Positions 6,777 through 48,226 of a stretch of DNA of 54,425 bases are shown one piece after another (position 1 is the first letter of the stretch; the number at the start of each line of letters is the position of its first letter). Origin of the DNA: Planctomycetota bacterium (GTDB taxonomy: Bacteria; Planctomycetota; Planctomycetia; Pirellulales; Pirellulaceae); contig JAPOIJ010000008.1 of NCBI GenBank assembly GCA_029979005.1, forward strand, positions 1 to 54,425, read 5' to 3'. The notes below the pieces were generated by a model, which saw nothing but the letters and a program-made list of their open reading frames with translations, ran no database searches and was not told the origin of the DNA. A program made the position numbers and the translations under genes.

Positions 6777-8144
6777 TTAACTGTCGAGCTCAGTTAGTTT
6801 TCCGCTGGAATCGGAGAAAGAATCGACAGGAGCTCCCATCTTATCGAGCATAGAGACATAGAGATTGGTCAAGGGCGTGCGATTCCTGAATCGTATGAAG
6901 CGTCCCGTTTCAATGGATCCCCCTCCCCCGCCAAACATCATGATCGGAAGATTGTCGTGGGCGTGTGAGTTGCCATCAGCAATTCCGCTACCGTACATAA
7001 CCATGCAATTGTCCAGTAACGTGCCGTCTCCCTCTTCGATGGAATCAAGTTTTGAGATGAAATGATTGGCCAGGCTCATATGGTATTGATTGATCTTGCT
7101 AATCTTCTGTTGCTTTTCACGCGAATTGCCGTGATGGGAGATGGTGTGGTGACCTTCGCGAATTGAGAGGTTTCGATAGGCGCGATTCCCGCCCGCATTG
7201 GTATACATGAAGGTCGAGATTCGTGTCGTATCGGACTGGAAGGCAAGTACCATCATGTCGAGTAAAATTTTAACATGCTGTGAATACTCAGCGGGAACTC
7301 CAACGGGCCGAGGGAAATCGGAATGGTCGTCACCGGAGGACTCTAGCTTGTCGGTGGTGGCGAGGCGTCGTTCGATATCTCGTACCGCATACAAATACTC
7401 ATCGAGTTTTCGGCGATCCTGTTGGCCCAGATAATTACTGAGGGATTTTGCTTCGCCACGAACAAAATCCAAAATGCTTTTGCGACCTGAGGCTTGTTTG
7501 GCTTGTGCTCGCATATTTTCAATTTCATCAGCTGAACCAAACATTCTGGAAAACACAGCAGCTGGATTGATTTCTTTTGGTAACGGCGAGGTCTCGGTTC
7601 GCCAGGAAATATTTGAAGTGTAAAGGCAACTGTAGCCCGAGTCGCATCTTCCCCCGGTCGAACTTCCTTCAGTTCCCAGTTCAAGTGATTTTAATTTTGT
7701 GAGATGTCCAATTTTTTCAGCCGCGATCTGGTCGACTGACGTTCCATTTTTAATGTCATTGCCATGCGTCTTTTTAGGATGCGCACCTGTTAAAAATGAA
7801 GCGACGGACCTGGCATGATCCCCTCCTCCGTCACCAAGTGCCTGCGCACCGCGTAACGAAAGTCCTGAAAAGATATTCATTTTCTCTCGGTGAGCGGCGA
7901 CGGGTTCCATGATCGACTGGAGTTGGAAATCACGATCCCCACGTCCCTGCGGAATCCAGTCCGGCATATGCATACCGTTGGGAACGTAGAGGAATGCCAT
8001 CCGCACTGGCGGTTTCGTGGACGCTACGCGATTGGTTACGTTGGCGATCAAAGGTGCCGGGCGTGTCATGGCTTCCAGCCACGGTAACGCAAGGGAAGTC
8101 CCCAGGCCACGGAGCACGGTGCGACGCGAAATCTGTTTGCCCAT
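6777..8144 (-). CDS. DUF1552 secreted protein with Tat-like signal
   Basis: A 455-residue planctomycete-type DUF1552 protein. The N-terminus reads SRRTVLRGLG followed by a short hydrophobic segment, which fits a twin-arginine export signal. Family landmarks include FLYVPNGMHMPDW near residue 52, the HARS...FLTGAHP segment, DMMVLAFQSDTTRI, and the HHTISHHGN segment. It begins 19 bases after the stop of the DUF1592-type gene, so the two are almost certainly one transcription unit. In planctomycetes and related bacteria these two families are repeatedly adjacent. The molecular function is not established. The fold is related to the DUF1501/sulfatase-like group, which is my recollection rather than something shown here. 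Confidence 0.92.
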   Translation of the reverse strand: MGKQISRRTVLRGLGTSLALPWLEAMTRPAPLIANVTNRVASTKPPVRMAFLYVPNGMHMPDWIPQGRGDRDFQLQSIMEPVAAHREKMNIFSGLSLRGAQALGDGGGDHARSVASFLTGAHPKKTHGNDIKNGTSVDQIAAEKIGHLTKLKSLELGTEGSSTGGRCDSGYSCLYTSNISWRTETSPLPKEINPAAVFSRMFGSADEIENMRAQAKQASGRKSILDFVRGEAKSLSNYLGQQDRRKLDEYLYAVRDIERRLATTDKLESSGDDHSDFPRPVGVPAEYSQHVKILLDMMVLAFQSDTTRISTFMYTNAGGNRAYRNLSIREGHHTISHHGNSREKQQKISKINQYHMSLANHFISKLDSIEEGDGTLLDNCMVMYGSGIADGNSHAHDNLPIMMFGGGGGSIETGRFIRFRNRTPLTNLYVSMLDKMGAPVDSFSDSSGKLTELDS

Positions 8145-8163
8145 CTTTAAATCCTATGGAAGA

Positions 8164-10539
8164 TTACTCTTCGGTAACGAGAGCTGGCGGACCTGTTCGT
8201 TTAATAAACGGGTCGCTCGTTGCAATTGCGATTACCAAATCAGAAAAACGGTAGCCCTCTGTTTCGATCTCTTCAATTATTTTATCGACTGAACAATCGT
8301 CAAAATACTCTAAACCTCGGCCGAGTGCATAAATTAGCATTTTTTCAGTCATGCATCGTACGAACTTATCCCTCATTTTCGTTTTTACGGTTCTCTGGAG
8401 CTCGATTGCCCCCGTGAAAATCGTCCCGTCCGGCAGTTCACCTGAAGGGTCGATCGTACTGGTTTCATCGACGTCTCGCCATTTCCCAACGGCGTCGTAA
8501 TTTTCCAAAGCAAATCCGAGTTGATCCATTACCTTGTGACAGACGGCACAAGCAGGGTTAGCGCGGTGTTGTTCCATTCGCTGTCGAAGCGTTCCCTTCA
8601 GTTCCGCTTGATCCTCTAGCTGCATGGCCGAAGGATCGGGAGGAGGCGGTTCTTCACCCAGGAGATTTTCAAGAATCCACTTGCCACGTTTTACCGGGGA
8701 GGTGCGGGTCGGATTGGAAGTGAGCGTTAAGACGCTTGCCTGCGTCAGTAATCCGCGGCGACCGTACTTCGACATCGATACCTTGCGAAAATTTTCTCCG
8801 CGAACGCCAGGTACCCCATAATGTTCGGCGAGACGTTGGTTAATGAAAGAACTTTCTGAATCGAGGGCATCGAGGATGCTTGCATTACGTTTGATTAGAT
8901 CGGCGAATAGAAGCTTGGTTTCGGTTGCCATATCCCGTTGCATTTCAAGGTTGAAGCCGGGAAACAAATCGGGATCAGGTTTGAAATGTTCCAAATGGCC
9001 GAGTTGGAGCCATTGCTCCACAAAGTTTTCGACGAGTGCATTTGCCTTGGGGTCTTTTAGCATGCGGACAATTTGGCGTTGGTATTCGGCAGGCTTGGAA
9101 AGTTCGCCGCGTGCGGCCAGCCGAAACAGCTCATTGTCTGGCATTGAACTCCAAAGGAAATAGGAAAGGCTCGTGGCAAGCTCGAAATCGTTTAAGTTCC
9201 TTGTTTCCCCCATCGCAGTTGGAGCCTCGACTTTGTACAGAAAATAAGGTGAGACCAGCACCGCTTGAAAAGTAAATCTAAGTGAGACTTCGAAACCCTG
9301 CCCTTCCTCTCGAGACTGATCGTAGAGTTTCATAATCCGATTTAATTCGCCTTGAGTCGCGCGACGGCGATAGGCTCGCGACATAAAAAGATTCAGTACT
9401 TTTTCAGCCTCGACGCGTTGCGCTTCGGGATCACTGGGGGAGTTGGGGATTAACTTCAGATGTGTTTTCGGAAGAGCACCGCTTGGCCCGGTCACTTCAG
9501 CGTTCACAACATAAAGGTTGCGATCGCCTTTGTTCGGTTCATAGAAATCATTGAGAAAGGAAATGCCAAGCTGATTTTCACCTTTTTTTAATCGCACCGT
9601 GACCGTAAAGGAATCGGGCTCCTCTTGAGTCGCTTTGACTGTTTTTGTAACAGAGCCTTTTCCATTAACCGCAATGCCCATCTTGACTGGTTCGTCGCCC
9701 CACTGACTACCATAAGCGACGATTGACAATTCATATTTACCAGACTCCGTGATTTCGAGCGGGTATGAAATCGTGCCGTTAGTTGAAAGCACATGCTGAG
9801 TTTGGAAGGGGCGAGAACCGTTTGTTTTTTTGAACTCACTTCCAGGAATCGTTGCTTTAAATCGGGGAACGGAAGGGTCGGCGATTGCAGAATTTGTGAT
9901 TTCCTCAGCGGCTTGGAGGTATTTCTCCATTAAGATTGGGGGAAGCGACAACACGTCGGCAATATTGTCGAATCCATATCCCACATCGTCTCCGGGAAAT
10001 TGCTCGGCGGGATCGTAATTAATTCCAATTAAGTCACGAATCGTATTTTTGTATTCCGTCCGATTCAATCGGCGAATGGTGACACGCCCCGGGTTAATCT
10101 CGGTGCAATCGACACTGTTCAGTAGGTTGTCGATCCAATCGAGTAAAACTCGGTGTTTATCGTCCGGTAGCGGAGGATCCTCTATCGGTGGCATCTCTTT
10201 GGCGACAACGCGAACGACGACCTTTTGCCATTTTTTACGTCCATTGAGAAGCTGATCCAGGGTGGCGAATCCCTCGAGATTAAAGTCTGCTTCCGCCCCG
10301 TCACCCCAATGGCAATCTCCACAATATTGCTTAAGCGTGGGCAGTATTTGCTGCGTGTATTGTCTCTGGATGGCTCGCAAGTCATCCTTGTTGTCCGAGA
10401 ACTCAAAAAGATTTGCATTCCACTGCGAAGATTCATCTGGAGTGCTAAGCGTTGCGACGGATCCAGTATTTGCCAATAAAAGCCAACTTGAATTAGCAAT
10501 GAAAATAACGCAGGCGAAAATTTTTAGTTTGTTTTTCAT
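8164..10539 (-). CDS. DUF1587/1592/1588/1585-type cytochrome-like secreted protein
   Basis: A 791-residue exported protein, chosen to start at the ATG at 10539 so that the hydrophobic segment KIFACVIFIANSSWLLLA forms the signal peptide; the frame stays open to 10587. An N-terminal planctomycete cytochrome-like domain has CGDCH, a haem c motif of the CxxCH type. DUF1587 follows (RVTIRRLNRTEY), then a carbohydrate-binding-like segment (about 240-350), DUF1595 and DUF1592 (FLWSSMPDNELFRLA), and DUF1588 (RRGLLTQASVLTLTSNPTRTSPV) with a second CxxCH (CAVCHKVMDQLGFA). A DUF1585-like end follows. It is the first gene of the pair with the DUF1552 gene. An extracytoplasmic redox role is suggested by the two haem motifs; the substrate is unknown. 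Confidence 0.92.
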   Translation of the reverse strand: MKNKLKIFACVIFIANSSWLLLANTGSVATLSTPDESSQWNANLFEFSDNKDDLRAIQRQYTQQILPTLKQYCGDCHWGDGAEADFNLEGFATLDQLLNGRKKWQKVVVRVVAKEMPPIEDPPLPDDKHRVLLDWIDNLLNSVDCTEINPGRVTIRRLNRTEYKNTIRDLIGINYDPAEQFPGDDVGYGFDNIADVLSLPPILMEKYLQAAEEITNSAIADPSVPRFKATIPGSEFKKTNGSRPFQTQHVLSTNGTISYPLEITESGKYELSIVAYGSQWGDEPVKMGIAVNGKGSVTKTVKATQEEPDSFTVTVRLKKGENQLGISFLNDFYEPNKGDRNLYVVNAEVTGPSGALPKTHLKLIPNSPSDPEAQRVEAEKVLNLFMSRAYRRRATQGELNRIMKLYDQSREEGQGFEVSLRFTFQAVLVSPYFLYKVEAPTAMGETRNLNDFELATSLSYFLWSSMPDNELFRLAARGELSKPAEYQRQIVRMLKDPKANALVENFVEQWLQLGHLEHFKPDPDLFPGFNLEMQRDMATETKLLFADLIKRNASILDALDSESSFINQRLAEHYGVPGVRGENFRKVSMSKYGRRGLLTQASVLTLTSNPTRTSPVKRGKWILENLLGEEPPPPDPSAMQLEDQAELKGTLRQRMEQHRANPACAVCHKVMDQLGFALENYDAVGKWRDVDETSTIDPSGELPDGTIFTGAIELQRTVKTKMRDKFVRCMTEKMLIYALGRGLEYFDDCSVDKIIEEIETEGYRFSDLVIAIATSDPFIKRTGPPALVTEE

Positions 10540-10894
10540 GAACTGTTCAAGGAAAGTTTGTCCGCGTAGAAGGATTGCCGCAACCATCCAAGTCTAGCAA
10601 TTTAGCCCTGAATTGGGCACCTTTGAATCCGTAAAGCCAACGATATCCCACTAGGTTAAACCGTTGAAATGTCCCAAATGTCCGGCGAAATGAGGGGGTA
10701 TTTGCAAAAAAAACCGCCTAAAACGCATTTTTTGGGCAAAAATCGGGGTTTTGCCCGTGTTTTTGGGTAATGCTGTATTGAATTATTGGGCTAACTAAGT
10801 CTAATTTCCGCGTCGCGTAATTCGGAAGAACTTGTTTTCCCCGAGTTTCCGAGTTTTTAAATCCAAAACCTACACTCATTGGAGGCATCGTCTT
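10540..10894. promoter_or_regulatory. Divergent intergenic region upstream of the HU gene
   Basis: This 355-base region separates the minus-strand DUF1592-type gene from the plus-strand HU gene. A possible sigma-70-type promoter for the HU gene has TTGAAT at 10778-10783, a 16-base spacer and TCTAAT at 10800-10805. A hairpin with stem GGGCAAAA (10734-10741) and TTTTGCCC (10749-10756) lies just upstream. The ribosome binding site GGAGGC is at about 10881-10886. The promoter call is by eye only. Confidence 0.35.
10734..10756 (+). other. Perfect 8-bp stem hairpin upstream of HU gene
   Basis: GGGCAAAA pairs perfectly with TTTTGCCC across a seven-base loop, and a short T-rich run follows (GTGTTTTTGGG). 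It lies before the suggested HU promoter. It could be a terminator for stray plus-strand transcription or a protein-binding site; nothing in the sequence decides between them. Confidence 0.4.
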
Positions 10895-11218
10895 ATGGCG
10901 AAAAAGACTGGCCCAAAAGCCCCGACCAAATCAGAAATCATGAACAACATGGCTGAAGCAACAGGTCACACGAAAAAAGAAATCGCAGCTTTTTTTGAAG
11001 CTTTAACATCTGAAATCGCAAAGAATTGTCAGGCTGGTGGGCCTGGTCAGTTCACGATTCCCGGTCTTTGCAAAATTGTCGTTCAAGACAAACCTGCAAT
11101 GCCTAAGCGTGAAGTAAGAAACCCTGGAACAGGCGAAATGGTATGGGCCAAGCCACGACCAGCTCGACAGGTCATCAAGGTTCGAGCGCTTAAGGGTCTT
11201 AAAGACATGGTCAGCTAG
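10895..11218 (+). CDS. HU/IHF-family DNA-binding protein
   Basis: A 107-residue histone-like nucleoid protein expected to bind and bend DNA as a dimer. The start at 10895 is preferred over the upstream open frame to 10832 because a strong GGAGGC ribosome binding site lies 9 bases before it. The helical dimerisation body holds KSEIMNNMAEATGHTKKEI. The beta-arm region reads REVRNPGTGEMVWAKP, where bacterial HU usually has GRNPxTG, so the arm tip is recognisable but altered. A basic N-terminal tail (AKKTGPKAPTK) extends slightly beyond classical HU. The gene is monocistronic, with its own terminator at 11299-11326. Confidence 0.93.
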   Translation: MAKKTGPKAPTKSEIMNNMAEATGHTKKEIAAFFEALTSEIAKNCQAGGPGQFTIPGLCKIVVQDKPAMPKREVRNPGTGEMVWAKPRPARQVIKVRALKGLKDMVS

Positions 11219-11298
11219 AACCATAAAGCTTTGAGAGAATGGGAATCGAAAATACCTTAGTTATTCGAATTTCAGGCTCTTTACTCAATGCATTGAAA

Positions 11299-11326
11299 AC
11301 CGTCGGAAATTCCGGCGGTTTTTTTT
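11299..11326 (+). terminator. Rho-independent terminator after the HU gene
   Basis: Stem ACCGTCGG pairs with CCGGCGGT around an AAATT loop with one G-T wobble, followed directly by a run of eight T. It lies about 80 bases after the HU stop codon and is a textbook intrinsic terminator. Confidence 0.88.
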
Positions 11327-42062: not shown

Positions 42063-42782
42063 CTAAAACTTAGGCCATTGTTTTCCAATTGCTTTTTGTT
42101 GGATTTGGGTAAGCTGTTTAATGCTTTTCTTGGCTAGCTTAATAAGATCTGCTAACTCGTTTTCACTGAAGGTTGCTTCTTCTCCAGTGCCCTGGATTTC
42201 GACGAATTGGCCGCGACCGGTCATGACGACGTTCATGTCAACACTGGCGGCAAAATCCATCGGGTAATCCAAGTCCGTGACTGGTTTGCCGTCAACGATC
42301 CCGACACTGATCGCCGCAATTGAATCTCGAAGTGGATAGACTTTGGGGTCGGGTAGATCTTTTTTGATTGAATTGATGGCGTCTACGAGCGCAATCATCC
42401 CTCCCGTGATGCTGGCGGTGCGAGTACCCCCGTCGGCTTGAAGAACGTCACAGTCAACTGTGATTTGGCGAGCACCTAGTGCTTCCAGATTTGCAACTGC
42501 GCGGAGGCTTCTCCCGATGAGTCTTTGAATTTCAGTGGTCCTGCCGTCGACCTTAGATCGATCTCTTCGTTTACGCGGACTGGTGCTTCCCGGAAGCATG
42601 TTGTATTCCGCTGTAATCCAGCCTTTTTCAGAGTTTCGCATCCATGGTGGAACATCTTCAGAGACACTCGCTGTGCAGAGGACAACGGTTCCACCACATT
42701 GGTAGAGGACACTGCCTGGAGTCTTGTTGGTGAATTTGCGTTTTACTTTGACTGGGCGTATTTCGTTGGCTTTTCGAGTCAT
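42063..42782 (-). CDS. rph: Ribonuclease PH
   Basis: Phosphorolytic 3'-5' exoribonuclease that trims the 3' ends of tRNA precursors. A 239-residue protein with [15 protein letters not shown], the [17 protein letters not shown] segment, [17 protein letters not shown] and the catalytic core [20 protein letters not shown]. Length matches the family. The ATG at 42782 is chosen over a TTG at 42791. It is the last gene of the run argB, argF, rph, with about 59 bases after argF. Confidence 0.97.
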
Positions 42783-42841
42783 GGTATTCAATCGTGCAGG
42801 AATAGTTTTTTTGAGAGTTGGGACTTTAAGCAGAACAGCAA

Positions 42842-43768
42842 CTAGCTGGCTTTCGACGCTTCGGTAAGCAACCAGACTACAAGTCCCTTTTGGGCATGAA
42901 GTCGATTGTTTGCTTGCTGGATAATTGCGCTTTGAGGGCTGTCGATTACTTCTGAGGTAACCTCTTCGCCTCGCCTTGCTGGTAAACAGTGTAGGAATTT
43001 GGCACCGTCTCGAGCGGAGTTCATGATGTTCTGGTTGATTTGGTAGCCAGACAGATCAGAAAGGCGCTGCTGTGATTCGGCCTCTTGTCCCATGCTTGTC
43101 CAAACGTCGGTGTAAACGAAAGCAGCATCCGCTGCAGCGGCGACTGCATCGCTCGTTTGTGTGATGATTGGCGAACCAGCAGCCTCATTGAGTTGATCAA
43201 TGAAGGACGATTCAAATTGGTATTTTTCAGGTGCACCAATTCGCAGTGGGATGTTTAGTTTACTACACGCTACCGCGAGACTGTAAGTTACGTTGTTGGC
43301 ATCTCCAAGATAAGCGATGCTCACATCGCTTAGACCGCCTGCTAATTCCTGGATCGTCAAAATATCGGCGAGAGCCTGGCAGGGGTGGGAGACATCGGTC
43401 AATCCATTAATAATTGGGCACTCGCTGAACTCGGTGGCTTCAACGACTTGTTGGTGGCTCTTGGCGCGAATGACGAGGACGTCGAGGTAGCTGGTAAGAA
43501 TTGGCATAAAGTCGCAGAGCGGTTCGCGCTTGCCCCAACCAACATCTTCTCCAAGGAAAAGTGCCGAACCACCGAGTTGTCGAATCAACGTCTCAAAACT
43601 GACACGCGTCCGGAGGGAAGGTTTCTCGAACAGTAGGCCCATAACCTGATGTTCCAGCAATCCTGGTCGGTTGCCCTCATTAAGCTTAGATTTTAGATCT
43701 GATGAAATTTCCAGAACCCGACGAATTTCTTCGCTGGAAAGGTCAAACAGGGAAAGCACATGTCTCAT
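42842..43768 (-). CDS. argF: Ornithine carbamoyltransferase
   Basis: Makes citrulline from ornithine and carbamoyl phosphate. The carbamoyl phosphate motif SLRTR is near residue 51, HPCQAL near 128, and the ornithine-binding [11 protein letters not shown] near 259. At 308 residues it has the family length. The ATG at 43768 starts [15 protein letters not shown] as usual for the family. The stop of argB is 41 bases upstream, so the two arginine genes are likely cotranscribed. Confidence 0.95.
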
Positions 43769-43809
43769 GCGATGTCCTTTTGCATATCTCAGAGAGATGG
43801 ATGGAAGGT

Positions 43810-44754
43810 TCAAGTCTGGTTGGAAATGACGGTGCCGATGCCGCTGCTGGTGTAAACTTCGAGCAATAACCCGTGCCGAAGAGAGCCATTAACTATGTGT
43901 ACTTTTCGAACTCCGCGGTCAATGGTCTCAAGGCATGCTTCCACTTTGGGAATCATTCCGTCGGAAATCGTACCATCGGCTATTAACTCTAAAGCTTCCG
44001 ATTTGGTAAGACTTGAAATAATAGAATCCGGATCGGACGGGTCTCGAAGGACTCCGGGGACATCTGACAAAATTACCAGTTTGTCTGCGTTAAGTTCCTG
44101 AGCAAGTTTGGTCGCAACGGTATCGGCGTTTACGTTAAGTTTTTGCCCATCGGCATCGACACACATTGACGGGATAAATGGGGTTTGGCCGGCGTAGCAA
44201 AGGTTGTCAATTACCAATCGGTCAACTTTTGTGACTTCACCGACGAATCCGAGGTCGACGGGTTGCCCGTCATTTCCGTTTAGTTCTAGTTTTTTACCGG
44301 TTAAGACTGGAGTTGAATCGAAGTTTAACGTCATCGCGCGACCACCGATTTTTTCAAATTCGTCGGCCAAAAATTGATTCGTTTCCTGTGCGAGGACCCG
44401 CTCGACGATGTCGAGCGTGGGGGCGTCTGTGTATCTTCTTCCTTCGACGAAACGCGGTTCTATTCCGGCCTCTTTCATGGCAGCTGAAATCCGACTACCT
44501 GCCCCATGAACAACAACGGGGCGCATTCCCACGGTTTCCATGAAATGAATGTCGAGCAAAATGTGGTGGAGCGCATCGATGTCATCGAGCATGCTACCGC
44601 CCAGTTTGATGACGGTGGTTTTGTCTCGAAACATTCGGATCCAGCCGAGTGCTTCGATTAAGGTGTTTGCTTTTTGAATTGCCTGTTCCACGGTGTTCGT
44701 TTCTTTTGAGTGTTGAGTCTGCGACTTGCGTAGAGCAATGGGAAAGCTCACCAT
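43810..44754 (-). CDS. argB: Acetylglutamate kinase
   Basis: Phosphorylates N-acetylglutamate, the second step of arginine synthesis. The motif [11 protein letters not shown] near residue 50 begins the amino acid kinase fold, [10 protein letters not shown] near 82 binds the acetylglutamate and [11 protein letters not shown] near 230 binds ATP. The start is uncertain: the ATG at 44754 has a GGAAG ribosome binding site seven bases before, but homologs usually start nearer [14 protein letters not shown], which would suit the GTG at 44691. Either way the catalytic domain is complete. Confidence 0.93.
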
Positions 44755-44911
44755 CCTAGAACTTCCGATGGGCCGGTGCAAGGTTCTAGATATTGGTCGT
44801 CCAATTACCCGGATAGTATCCGGCCTCTGAAATCAGGCTTGAGTAGGTTTACTACTTTGGTGAAATGACCCCAAAAGATTACTAAATCGAACGTTAAAGG
44901 AGTGCCGAGGG

Positions 44912-47900
44912 TTAAGCGATGGCGGCGTCCTTATCAGTGATTTTTTCCCACTCACGGGCTAAGATTTCGACCGAATCACGAATCTGCTTTTCAGTATGGG
45001 CTGCAGTCATGAAAATTCTAACTCTAGTTTCCTTCTCCGGCACAGCGGGATAAAGAATGGGTTGAGCGTTGATTCCATGATCGTACAGGGCTTCTGAGAG
45101 ACGCAAGGCTTTAAGGGAGTGACCGGTGATGATCGGAATGATCGCAGTCCCCTGAGCCATGCCAGTATCGAGCCCGGCTTCTTTGGCGAGCCTGAGGAAC
45201 AGTTGGGCATTCGATTGTAACTTGGTAACCAATTCAGGTTGTTTCTGTAATACCCTCAGAGAGCCAAGCGCCGCTCCGACATTGGCGGGAGGCATGCCGG
45301 CGGCAAACACGTAGCCTGGCGTCGTATAACGAAGGTACTCAATTAACGAGCGAGAGCCTCCGACGAAACCGCCGCAACTGCCGAAGGATTTGCTCAAGGT
45401 GCCCATCCAGCACTCAATGTCATCTCGTTGGACGTTATATACTTCTCCCAGTCCCCGCCCCGTCTCGCCAAGTGTGCCAATGGAGTGAGCTTCGTCGAGA
45501 TACAACCAAGCCTTGTATCGTTTCTTGATCTCAATGAATTTTGGTAGATCCGGGTAATCCCCGTCCATGCTGTAAAGGCCTTCAATGATGATCAGTACGC
45601 GTCGGTACTCCCCACGACAACTGCGAAGAATATTTTCCAAATCTTCCCAGTTATTGTGCTCGAATGGTCGACGTTGAGCGCCGGAAAGCATCGCACCCTG
45701 GATCAGGCTGTTGTGGGCAAAACTGTCGTGAAGAATCAAATCGCCGCGTCCAACCAGATGTCCAATGATTGACTCATTGCAAGCGTGACCGCCAGGAAAC
45801 GTGATTACATCTTCAACGCCGAGGAACTCGGACAATTCCTTTTCGAGTTGTTTATGAATTGTTTTTTCGCCTGAGACAATTCGACTAGCCGAAACGCTCG
45901 TTCCGAAGTTATCAATCGCGTTCTTTGCAGATAAATTGACTTCGGGATCTCCGGAAAGCCCCAGGTAATTATAGCTCGCATAAGAAATTAGTTCTTTACC
46001 GTCTATTTCGGTCGTATCCCCGATGCGACCTTCATGAACACTGAAAAACGGGTTTCGAATTCCCGAATCTTCGATCCTTTTTCTGAGGCTTTGAAGTCGC
46101 ATGAATTCAGGCATCTTTTCAAGCTTGTAAAACGATTCAGGGACCTCTCCGTTCGTCTTTTTTGTTCCCGCATATTTCTGGATCGCGGTGGCAACTTCGC
46201 GAACGGTTTCAATGTCCTGCAGAACATGTTCCGGAATCTTCCCACCAAAAGCGCGCTCGAGTGATTGGGCGACATCGAGACGGGCGAGCGAATCAAGTCC
46301 CAGTTCGAGAATGTTAGTGTCTATTCCGACCGTTTGAGTTTTGTCCGTTAATGCGGAGTGCACCTGTTCAATAACGGCTTGAACAACTTCGGGTGCAAGT
46401 TCTGAATCAGCAAGCGTTTCGCCATCGATTTCAGCAGGAGCATATTCCTGATTCGATTCTATGTTCTGTGACTCTTCCCAGAGACACCAGCGGGCAATGA
46501 CATGGATGTCTTCGCCATTTTCAAAGTTTCTTTTACAGGCGTGTCTTTGGACTTTGCCGGAGGACGTTTTGGGAACACTATGGGCTCGCACCAAGACGAT
46601 TGCATCTGGCGGCAGATCGTGCTCAAGGGCAACCGAGGTACGGATGCTCTTGATGACATTTTCCCATTGTTCTTTGTCGCGGGTGCGCTCGATCTCACAA
46701 ACAATGACTAAATGTTCTCGATCCCATCGTGTGACTGAAAATGCGGCCGCTCCCCCTGAGCGTGTAAGTGGATGGCAAAGTTCAACGGTTGTTTCGATGT
46801 CTTGAGGGTACCGGTTTGCACCGCGGACGATAATCATATCTTTTAATCGACCGGTAACAAACAATTCGCCTCGATCCATAAACCCAAGATCACCCGAGCG
46901 GACATAGTACTTTCCATTGTCAGGTTTTAGTCGCGCCCGAAAGGTCTCTTGCGTTTCCTGTTCTTTTTGCCAGTATCCCTGGCCACAGCTTGGGCTGTTG
47001 ATCCAGATCTCTCCGATTTTATCATCGGGCAGCGGGGTATGGTTTTCCGGGTGAACGATGAGGACTTCTTCTTCCTCGAGAACCTTGCCGCAACCGACTA
47101 ATCGACGGGCATTTTCGTGGTTTTCATCAACGCGGAGAACGCGATGTTCGGACAATTCGTATTTGTCGAATGGTCTCACAATTGGAGCTTCTTCGTCCGA
47201 CCCACCCGTCACAATTAGGGTGGTTTCAGCCATGCCGTAGCAAGGATAGAAAGCCTCGGGACTAAATCCATAGGGAGCGAACTTTTCGGTGAAACGCTCC
47301 ATCACTGCAGCGCTAACCGGTTCGGCACCGTTGAACGCGACTTTCCAATTAGAAAGGTCAAGCCCTTCGCAGTCTTCTTCATCGATTTTCATCGTACACC
47401 ATGCGTAGGCGAAGTTTGGTCCTCCGCTGGCAATCGACTTGTATTTAGAAATGGCACGCAGCCAACGAATAGGACGCGTGAGGAAAGCTACGGGGGACAT
47501 TAAATTGTCTTCCGTTCCACAGTACATGGGGTTGAGAATGCCGCCGACGAGTCCCATGTCATGGTAGAGTGGAAGCCAGCTACAGATTGAACCCTTCCGT
47601 CCGGTCTGGAAAGCTCTTGTGATCATCCGGCAATTTGCAATGAGGTTGCGATGACTCAGCATCACACCTTTGGGAGAACCGGTTGACCCTGATGTGTATT
47701 GAATCAACCCAAGGTCGTCGAGCGAGGCTTTGGGTTTCACCCAGTCGTTGGCATACTCGGCGGCAACGGATTCTGTTGGCAGCCAAGGAATTCTCTGCAA
47801 GCCGGGAGAGTCCTTAATCCACTTTTCACAACTCTTGATCACTGATGAAACCGAAAGTGCAACCGATGCCTGCGAATCGTCTGAGATGGCACCGATTCGG

Positions 47901-48226
47901 GCCATGTTACGGTTGCGTCGTGGTGGAAATGCGGGGATCGGCGTAACGGCAGCGTAGTGACAACCAAAAAAAGCAACAATGAAATCGAGCCCCGGTGGAT
48001 ACATCATGAGCGCTCGCTTGCCAGCATAACCTCGGGAAACGAGCATTGCTGCAACAGCTTTGGCGCGGTGATCTAATTCTGCGAAAGTTAAAGTGGTTAT
48101 TTCGCCATCCCCACCAATGAAGCGGTAGGCGATTTTCTCCGGCAATGCTGCGGCCCAATAACTTAGCCGATCCAGGAAATTGGTTTCCGGGGGTGAGTAA
48201 GGTGCAAATAGTTCTTCAAGTTTCAC
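44912..48226 (-). CDS. Fusion of fatty acyl-AMP ligase, acyl carrier protein and alpha-oxoamine synthase
   Basis: A 1104-residue three-part enzyme. Residues about 1-575 form an AMP-forming acyl ligase of the FAAL type: YTSGSTGSPKG at 177-187, YGMAETT near 330, SGDLGFMDRGELFVTGR near 444 and the final KTSSGKVQR near 553. Residues about 610-685 form an acyl carrier protein with the phosphopantetheine Ser 646 in LGLDSLA. Residues about 700-1098 form a PLP-dependent alpha-oxoamine synthase: NYLGLSGDP near 753, DEAHSIG at 911 and the PLP Lys 946 in GTLSKSFGSCGGFVGG. The design implies loading a fatty acid on the carrier and decarboxylative condensation with an amino acid to give a long-chain amino ketone, as serine palmitoyltransferase does. 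It has no tailoring neighbour. Confidence 0.9.
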   Translation of the reverse strand: MKLEELFAPYSPPETNFLDRLSYWAAALPEKIAYRFIGGDGEITTLTFAELDHRAKAVAAMLVSRGYAGKRALMMYPPGLDFIVAFFGCHYAAVTPIPAFPPRRNRNMARIGAISDDSQASVALSVSSVIKSCEKWIKDSPGLQRIPWLPTESVAAEYANDWVKPKASLDDLGLIQYTSGSTGSPKGVMLSHRNLIANCRMITRAFQTGRKGSICSWLPLYHDMGLVGGILNPMYCGTEDNLMSPVAFLTRPIRWLRAISKYKSIASGGPNFAYAWCTMKIDEEDCEGLDLSNWKVAFNGAEPVSAAVMERFTEKFAPYGFSPEAFYPCYGMAETTLIVTGGSDEEAPIVRPFDKYELSEHRVLRVDENHENARRLVGCGKVLEEEEVLIVHPENHTPLPDDKIGEIWINSPSCGQGYWQKEQETQETFRARLKPDNGKYYVRSGDLGFMDRGELFVTGRLKDMIIVRGANRYPQDIETTVELCHPLTRSGGAAAFSVTRWDREHLVIVCEIERTRDKEQWENVIKSIRTSVALEHDLPPDAIVLVRAHSVPKTSSGKVQRHACKRNFENGEDIHVIARWCLWEESQNIESNQEYAPAEIDGETLADSELAPEVVQAVIEQVHSALTDKTQTVGIDTNILELGLDSLARLDVAQSLERAFGGKIPEHVLQDIETVREVATAIQKYAGTKKTNGEVPESFYKLEKMPEFMRLQSLRKRIEDSGIRNPFFSVHEGRIGDTTEIDGKELISYASYNYLGLSGDPEVNLSAKNAIDNFGTSVSASRIVSGEKTIHKQLEKELSEFLGVEDVITFPGGHACNESIIGHLVGRGDLILHDSFAHNSLIQGAMLSGAQRRPFEHNNWEDLENILRSCRGEYRRVLIIIEGLYSMDGDYPDLPKFIEIKKRYKAWLYLDEAHSIGTLGETGRGLGEVYNVQRDDIECWMGTLSKSFGSCGGFVGGSRSLIEYLRYTTPGYVFAAGMPPANVGAALGSLRVLQKQPELVTKLQSNAQLFLRLAKEAGLDTGMAQGTAIIPIITGHSLKALRLSEALYDHGINAQPILYPAVPEKETRVRIFMTAAHTEKQIRDSVEILAREWEKITDKDAAIA

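Follow-up and report, generated by a model that had tools for sequence, protein, structure and literature searches.

How might a bacterium make a sphingoid base from a free fatty acid and an amino acid on one polypeptide? The question is raised by a gene in a stretch of 54,425 nucleotides (the window; contig JAPOIJ010000008.1, positions 1 to 54,425 of the forward strand) from a Planctomycetota bacterium of the family Pirellulaceae, order Pirellulales (assembly GCA_029979005.1). A sequence-only reading had found there a single frame of 1104 residues, at 44912-48226, that joins an acyl-AMP ligase, a carrier protein and an oxoamine synthase resembling serine palmitoyltransferase (SPT), and had proposed that this protein turns a free fatty acid and an amino acid into a long-chain amino ketone. 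Domains, trees, catalytic residues and gene context support the proposal, and we favour the sphingoid branch over a generic amino ketone because of the gene context of relatives. In our assessment, the protein is probably a sphingoid-base synthase, that is, an SPT-type enzyme that loads its own acyl substrate, whichever amino acid it uses; serine is most likely that amino acid, a point that we hold with less confidence than the sphingoid-base assignment.

The fused protein and its catalytic residues

The frame was confirmed and lies on the minus strand, which had not been given before; on the plus strand, the same region is interrupted throughout by stop codons. The gene (44912..48226) has 1104 codons plus a stop and a GTG start, and 28 orthologues were aligned (alignment A1). 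As had been proposed, all three parts occur in one frame, with four Pfam domains over their gathering scores, each encoded on the minus strand. The N-terminal domain of the fatty acyl-AMP ligase (FAAL; residues 24-419, 46970..48157) matched AMP-binding with 208 bits, and its C-terminal domain (residues 463-570, 46517..46840) matched AMP-dom_DIP2-like (PF23024) with 48.8 bits. The acyl/peptidyl carrier protein (ACP) domain (residues 617-682, 46181..46378) matched PP-binding with 43.1 bits, and the alpha-oxoamine synthase (AOS) domain (residues 700-1097, 44936..46129) matched Aminotran_1_2 at residues 746-1087 with 152 bits. The best sequence matches of the ligase in PDB were FAAL-type proteins, namely 7r7e (534 bits) and 3kxw (447 bits), then 5d6j and FadD32, and also FadD23, with near end-to-end alignment. 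Because residues 25-582 align with 3kxw with short gaps only, the FAAL-specific insertion is not deleted at the level of this region-wide alignment. In NCBIfam, FAAL models ranked behind a nonribosomal peptide synthetase/polyketide synthase (NRPS/PKS) model, and none of the 25 families shown was over its cut-off.

Both motifs pointed out earlier, LGLDSLA and TLSKSFGSCGG, are present. The first holds Ser646 (codon 46289..46291, minus strand), the predicted phosphopantetheine attachment site; its loss had been named as evidence against the proposal, and it was invariant in 28 of 28 rows. The second holds Lys946 (codon 45389..45391, minus strand), the predicted Schiff-base lysine for pyridoxal phosphate (PLP), which corresponds to Lys244 in S. 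multivorum SPT and to Lys379 in human SPTLC2 and is kept in 27 of the 28 orthologues. The exception is protein L043 of genome G028, in which the PLP lysine is replaced by Thr and the stacking His by Asp. Besides this full-length protein (7842-11318), the same genome encodes a second ACP-AOS protein, L072 (6533-9491), of the same clade and about 0.3-0.4 kb from the orthologue of an acetyltransferase-like gene, GNAT1, described below; the decayed AOS domain of L043 has apparently been replaced by the separate protein.

Alignment with S. multivorum SPT paired His138 with His838, Asp210 with Asp911, His213 with His914, Lys244 with Lys946, Arg367 with Arg1070 and Ser81 with Ser781; a role of Ser81 in that enzyme is described in part of PMC10196870. 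When human SPT was included, the motif GT[FL][ST]KS with its Schiff-base lysine and the stacking histidine was found as GTLSKS, Lys946 and His838. The sequence-only reading had called the PLP motif SPT-like, and the residue that precedes the lysine agrees with this: the window protein shares Ser with bacterial SPTs and with ThAOS, LCB2 has Thr, and Gly or Ala stands there in BioF, KBL and HemA-like rows. Asn52 of S. multivorum SPT is replaced by Tyr in the window protein, S. paucimobilis SPT and LCB2. These active-site residues do not discriminate among Ser, Ala and Gly as the substrate. Structure prediction, which had been suggested for the C-terminal domain, gave an AOS model with a pLDDT of 90.3, whose top Foldseek match by E-value was SPT 8guh (TM 0.92), with narrow margins over other AOS structures.

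Just downstream of the gene and on the same minus strand, genes for an acetylglutamate kinase, an ornithine carbamoyltransferase and an RNase PH (named by eye) occupy 42063-44781 of the window.

Phylogenetic position and distribution

To which branch of the oxoamine synthases does the C-terminal domain belong? Its PDB sequence matches were, in order, ThAOS, S. multivorum SPT, human SPTLC2, plant LCB2 and then KBL, and its identity was 38% to human SPTLC2 (340 positions), 33% to S. multivorum SPT and ThAOS, and 29-31% to BioF, KBL and HemA-like rows. A comparison with the SPT, BioF, KBL, CqsA and HemA families had been suggested earlier; in our 45-row trees, the domain grouped with SPT and LCB2, apart from the BioF, KBL and HemA-like rows (97/95; 97/96 with other rows). 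It fell into a clade (100/99; hereafter the window clade) with planctomycete FAAL-ACP-AOS proteins, AOS domains borne on PKS proteins, proteins of Chlorogloeopsis, Xenococcus and Ectobacillus, and the stand-alone AOS of Methylocapsa palsarum. The nearest group to this clade was eukaryotic LCB2 (98/85 and 98/81 in the two trees). In approximately unbiased (AU) tests, which covered the BioF, KBL and bacterial-SPT groupings, joining the window clade to BioF was rejected (p 4e-8) and joining it to KBL was weakly rejected (p 0.03). Placement of the AOS on the SPT side of the tree is thus well supported by the sequences compared. A sister relationship to LCB2 is favoured by them and not secure, and we kept it out of our principal claim because the alternative of grouping the window clade with bacterial SPTs, without LCB2, was not rejected (p 0.12).

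These trees are defined by their rows. One earlier AOS tree held 67 of 79 rows, with 12 planctomycete rows omitted; both 45-row trees omitted further planctomycete rows as well as long or distant ones (L137, L171, L182, L185 and L187-L190), and the first of them also omitted L002. On unnamed rows, the labels BioF, KBL, HemA-like and bacterial SPT were assigned from profile scores and placement; L170 and L172, labelled BioF, scored just or clearly under the bioF cut-off, and L074 and L075, counted as FAAL-ACP-AOS in the first 45-row tree, were placed outside the window clade.

The nearest named family thus appears to be LCB2, a membrane-located acyl-CoA user that works as a heterodimer with LCB1. 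Because that family uses acyl-CoA, the tree does not settle whether the domain groups with enzymes that take free acyl-CoA, an outcome that had been named as evidence against the proposal; unlike LCB2, the window protein has a fused carrier.

The ACP-AOS part is spread through the order. It matched 217 of 246 Pirellulales genomes in 19 families, some of the matches being PKS-borne copies, and 173 of the 191 good genomes (E ≤ 1e-90). In a sample of the phylum, it matched 20 of 392 genomes (E ≤ 1e-80), 11 within the order and 9 outside; at this threshold, it was absent from the 19 listed class-mates of one family (f21). From the match rows of 60 related genomes, we counted 52 whose ligase and AOS parts share a frame; 12 of these gave two matches in that one frame, and in three (G010, G013 and G021) the frame lacks the beginning of the ligase. 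Among the remaining eight, G029 and G032 have frames interrupted by contig ends, and G036 encodes a FAAL on its own plus two further frames with an AOS at the end (one of 2608 amino acids, one cut by a contig end). The ligase-AOS frame was not found in G004, G037, G038, G041 and G048.

Gene context of relatives and a candidate acyltransferase

If the product is a sphingoid base, do later sphingolipid genes accompany the AOS? In Methylocapsa palsarum, whose AOS is the nearest stand-alone relative of the window AOS, a window-clade AOS, a GNAT-family protein of 387 amino acids and a desaturase of 358 amino acids are encoded in a row (L215 6598-10167, minus strand). The desaturase carries a Lipid_DES (delta-4) domain (40.2 bits; cut-off 23). 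As a set, the trio resembles eukaryotic SPT, the ceramide-synthase step and dihydroceramide desaturase.

Two cyanobacterial loci join the fusion to a reductase. Chlorogloeopsis fritschii PCC 6912 encodes a window-clade FAAL-ACP-AOS of 1146 amino acids 1.3 kb from a short-chain dehydrogenase/reductase (SDR), with one open reading frame between; the top PDB match of this SDR is the 3-ketodihydrosphingosine reductase TSC10 (110 bits; next 96). The locus also holds a second FAAL and two glycosyltransferases with sub-cut-off matches to monogalactosyldiacylglycerol (MGDG) synthase. In Limnothrix RL_2_0, a FAAL-ACP-AOS of 1117 amino acids is followed by an adjoining SDR of the same kind, and its AOS groups with bacterial SPTs (100/99; the wider group 91/96 in the second 45-row tree). 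Two kinds of AOS, one of bacterial-SPT type and one of window type, thus occur in the same architecture beside a like reductase, an argument for both catalysing the same reaction. SDR matches occurred in every one of the 60 related genomes and were set aside as evidence.

Other members of the clade occur with PKS proteins. In the planctomycete TBK1r (L193 4260-9515), a protein of 1751 amino acids read by eye as ketosynthase (KS)-KS-ACP-AOS-ACP carries a window-clade AOS and is followed by a further PKS gene. In Ectobacillus panaciterrae DSM 19096, a member of the Bacillota (L136 6386-14563), a FAAL and a 1622-residue PKS that ends in a window-clade AOS are adjoined by genes that look, by eye, like a thioesterase and a phosphopantetheinyl transferase.

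Relatives of the Methylocapsa GNAT were found in 57 of the 60 related genomes, and the AOS, too, is missing from the three without one (G038, G041 and G048). The copy in the window's own genome, GNAT1, lies at C251:1439-2566. Across the 246 Pirellulales genomes (GNAT1 at E ≤ 1e-60, the AOS as above), 210 had both, 7 only the AOS, 14 only the GNAT and 15 neither (Fisher p 2.4e-11; the matchless status of nine genomes was worked out from the lists of matches). The 191 good genomes gave counts of 172, 1, 8 and 10 (p 3.3e-11; two worked out in this way). Genomes are not independent in this test, and the 15 with neither gene represent 9 genera in 5 families. Of 58 genomes sampled from the class to which Methylocapsa belongs, 7 had the GNAT. 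Six alphaproteobacterial GNAT loci besides Methylocapsa were inspected: four of the stretches hold an SPT or SPT-like AOS (one an edge fragment) and two do not. Stretch L258 encodes a CerR-like epimerase, an ACP, an SPT (81% to S. paucimobilis SPT), two LptF/G-like proteins, a desaturase-like protein (the last two names by eye) and the GNAT. Its gene order resembles the Caulobacter CC_1154 region, where, according to part of PMC11324152, CC_1154 is an N-acyltransferase encoded beside lptF/lptG copies. By this synteny, the GNAT may be regarded as resembling the bacterial ceramide synthase bCerS.

A CerR-like gene was present in 17 of the 60 relatives, lying 37-574 bp from the GNAT in seven (G029, G032, G033, G042, G054, G057 and G059) and not beside it in the other 10. 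Family f17 (e.g., G494, G512 and G415) has GNAT frames of about 680-890 amino acids, and in G415 two GNAT matches share one 800-residue frame, so that this family seems, from sequence, to have an acyltransferase fused in tandem. In the window's own genome, a ketoacyl-synthase-like protein of 417 amino acids (by eye) is encoded about 150 bp downstream of GNAT1 (L236 1439-3971, contig C251). Outside Pirellulales, the GNAT as a general partner of the AOS was rejected, none of nine AOS-bearing genomes there having it at E ≤ 1e-35.

Proposed reactions, alternatives and known counterparts

From the domains, catalytic residues, clade, conservation and gene context of relatives, we infer the following reactions, amino acid, chain length and later steps. 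The FAAL domain would adenylate a free long-chain fatty acid with ATP and then, without recourse to coenzyme A, load the acyl chain onto the phosphopantetheine arm that Ser646 of the protein's own carrier domain would bear. The PLP domain, through Lys946, would form an external aldimine with the amino acid, most likely L-serine, and this would attack the carrier-bound thioester; CO2 would be lost and a 3-keto sphingoid base released. Distant genes would then N-acylate the base (the bCerS-like GNAT on C251) and reduce it, yielding ceramide-type lipids. That later steps fall to distant genes had been suggested from the window alone; a ceramide-synthase-like acyltransferase elsewhere in the genome agrees with this, and the part of CerR finds no counterpart, as no CerR-like match was found in the own genome (E ≤ 1e-12).

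This missing match is one of several observations that weigh against a sphingoid-base synthase. By eye, no recurrent lipid-related neighbours were found in 41 stretches around the gene (the protein matched in 36); a few families recur in part of the set, outer-membrane-like and sugar-isomerase-like ones, and because these are not lipid-related we drew no operon inference. With the Chlorogloeopsis SDR as the query, no clear KDSR (3-ketodihydrosphingosine reductase) orthologue was found in the 60 relatives, the listed rows having 26-38% identity, the level of generic SDRs. The GNAT occurs without the AOS in 14 of the 246 Pirellulales genomes, is commoner in the phylum sample (117 versus 20 of 392, at different thresholds), and is absent at E ≤ 1e-35 from all nine genomes that bear the AOS but lie outside Pirellulales; G038 has a CerR-like gene with neither AOS nor GNAT. 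Kinship with LCB2 is insecure, given the AU result above. In NCBIfam, bioF scored highest on the AOS part (345 bits of a cut-off of 426) and the SPT equivalogs lower (301 of 640, 286 of 500 and 231 of 670 bits); because none reaches its cut-off, we name the domain SPT-like and not a member of an SPT equivalog. The full-length model is weak between the domains (pTM 0.48) and was left unused. Finally, a second AOS-GNAT pair in the own genome, on contig C87, means that the GNAT evidence may partly belong to that pair.

How far do other explanations account for these data? Within the sphingoid-base claim itself, the same mechanism could run with alanine or glycine and give 1-deoxy-type bases instead of canonical 3-ketosphinganine. 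The active-site residues leave the amino acid unfixed, S. multivorum SPT also accommodates both amino acids (PMC10196870, in part), and 1-deoxysphingolipids have been reported from the Black Sea (part of PMC12619533), where a survey section counts 138 Planctomycetota metagenome-assembled genomes with Spt-like genes or proteins, the fusion going unmentioned in that section (PMC11334938). The nearest stand-alone relative, however, adjoins a sphingolipid delta-4 desaturase, and PfSgaB, an SPT from another bacterial cluster, almost exclusively prefers serine (PMC12134224, in part), and we regard this variant as unlikely. The C87 pair offers a different objection: it could be the true sphingolipid entry here, with the FAAL-ACP-AOS serving another lipid. 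C87 encodes in a row (L237 4610-9891, minus strand) an AOS of 428 amino acids, a second GNAT of 380 amino acids, 32% identical to GNAT1, and an MMPL-type transporter of 834 amino acids (by eye). This fourth AOS of the genome is under all cut-offs and falls on the bacterial SPT side of the tree (82/72, long branch), and the row could be a second sphingolipid entry. Yet, among the 60 relatives, the weaker second GNAT (73-113 bits) occurs in the window's genus only, whereas GNAT1 and the FAAL-ACP-AOS are order-wide, and in G028 it is a second window-clade ACP-AOS that lies close to the GNAT1 orthologue; sole entry through C87 thus seems quite unlikely.

That Ectobacillus, TBK1r and G036 have closely related AOS domains inside PKS proteins or at their ends would fit a secondary metabolite, as would the lack of recurrent lipid genes around the gene in Pirellulales: the amino ketone would be the precursor of a pyrrole, a pyrazine or a prodiginine-like compound, and no sphingolipid would be made for the membrane. 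Matches spread over 19 families of one order, in 217 of the 246 genomes, are atypical of such a product, however, and within the order the AOS co-occurs with the bCerS-like GNAT, so that we consider this improbable. That bioF gave the highest NCBIfam score might also suggest a different acyl-chain role, BioF-like or KBL-like, for this fold-type I oxoamine synthase. The trees and AU tests speak against it. Both roles are also covered without the window protein, by the genome's own BioF (456 bits; cut-off 426) and Kbl (472 bits; PRK06939 cut-off 460; 439 of 493 for TIGR01822). A biotin or threonine role was rejected on these grounds, and a role of this general kind is highly improbable. A self-loading sphingoid-base synthase remains the reading that we prefer.

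Fusions of an ACP and an AOS in one protein are known from SxtA and PigH, which are without an N-terminal FAAL and use other acyl chains and amino acids. As described in part of PMC9386255, Rhodobacterial SPT uses acyl-ACP, supplied by the specialised carrier AcpR and the acyl-ACP synthetase AasR (Caulobacter CC_1162/1163/1165). The window protein would combine the same three activities, a dedicated carrier rather than CoA holding the acyl chain before SPT-type condensation; unlike that three-protein system, it is one polypeptide with a FAAL-type ligase and an AOS from another SPT-side clade. Of the bCerS and CerR of that system, a bCerS-like GNAT has its place in the own genome, whereas the CerR-like gene stands beside the GNAT only in the seven relatives mentioned. 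PfSgaABC of Pseudomonas fluorescens MYb115 makes sphinganines, its PKS-linked SPT PfSgaB being paired with a KDSR homologue (part of PMC12134224). In PfSgaAB, too, the acyl chain goes to an SPT-type AOS, but there an iterative PKS makes the chain and the AOS is a separate protein; the window's FAAL would load a ready fatty acid, and KS domains appear only in its PKS relatives (TBK1r and Ectobacillus). The ligase aligns near end to end with those of FAAL-ACP loading modules (the PKS FAAL 7r7e and the FAAL 3kxw); such modules, unlike the window protein, feed PKS or NRPS lines (PMC8460268, in part). A term search of a FAAL review (PMC11837247) gave no mention of oxoamine, PLP or sphing. Among the matches listed, no open-licence title announced a one-protein FAAL-ACP-SPT, its near order-wide presence, its LCB2 kinship or sphingolipids in Pirellulales. 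What seems new, judged by these titles, is not the chemistry, which is known, but the fusion into one protein, its nearly order-wide occurrence and its position beside LCB2.

A wider scenario is possible, if rather doubtful: the FAAL-ACP-SPT would be the order-wide sphingolipid entry of Pirellulales, its AOS lineage (planctomycetes, some cyanobacteria and Methylocapsa) would be the closest sampled bacterial relative of LCB2, and the eukaryotic enzyme would descend from it, with CoA use and the LCB1/LCB2 heterodimer arising later. Bacterial sphingolipids were long considered rare (part of PMC12619533). If our assignment is true, a large planctomycete order would have sphingolipids among its core traits, owing to an enzyme that goes unnamed by the SPT models of NCBIfam. 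For biocatalysis, the gene would be of use as a single-gene route that turns a fatty acid and an amino acid into a sphingoid base; it would also serve as a marker for sphingolipid makers in metagenomes, and its lineage would be a bacterial one that bears on the origin of eukaryotic SPT.

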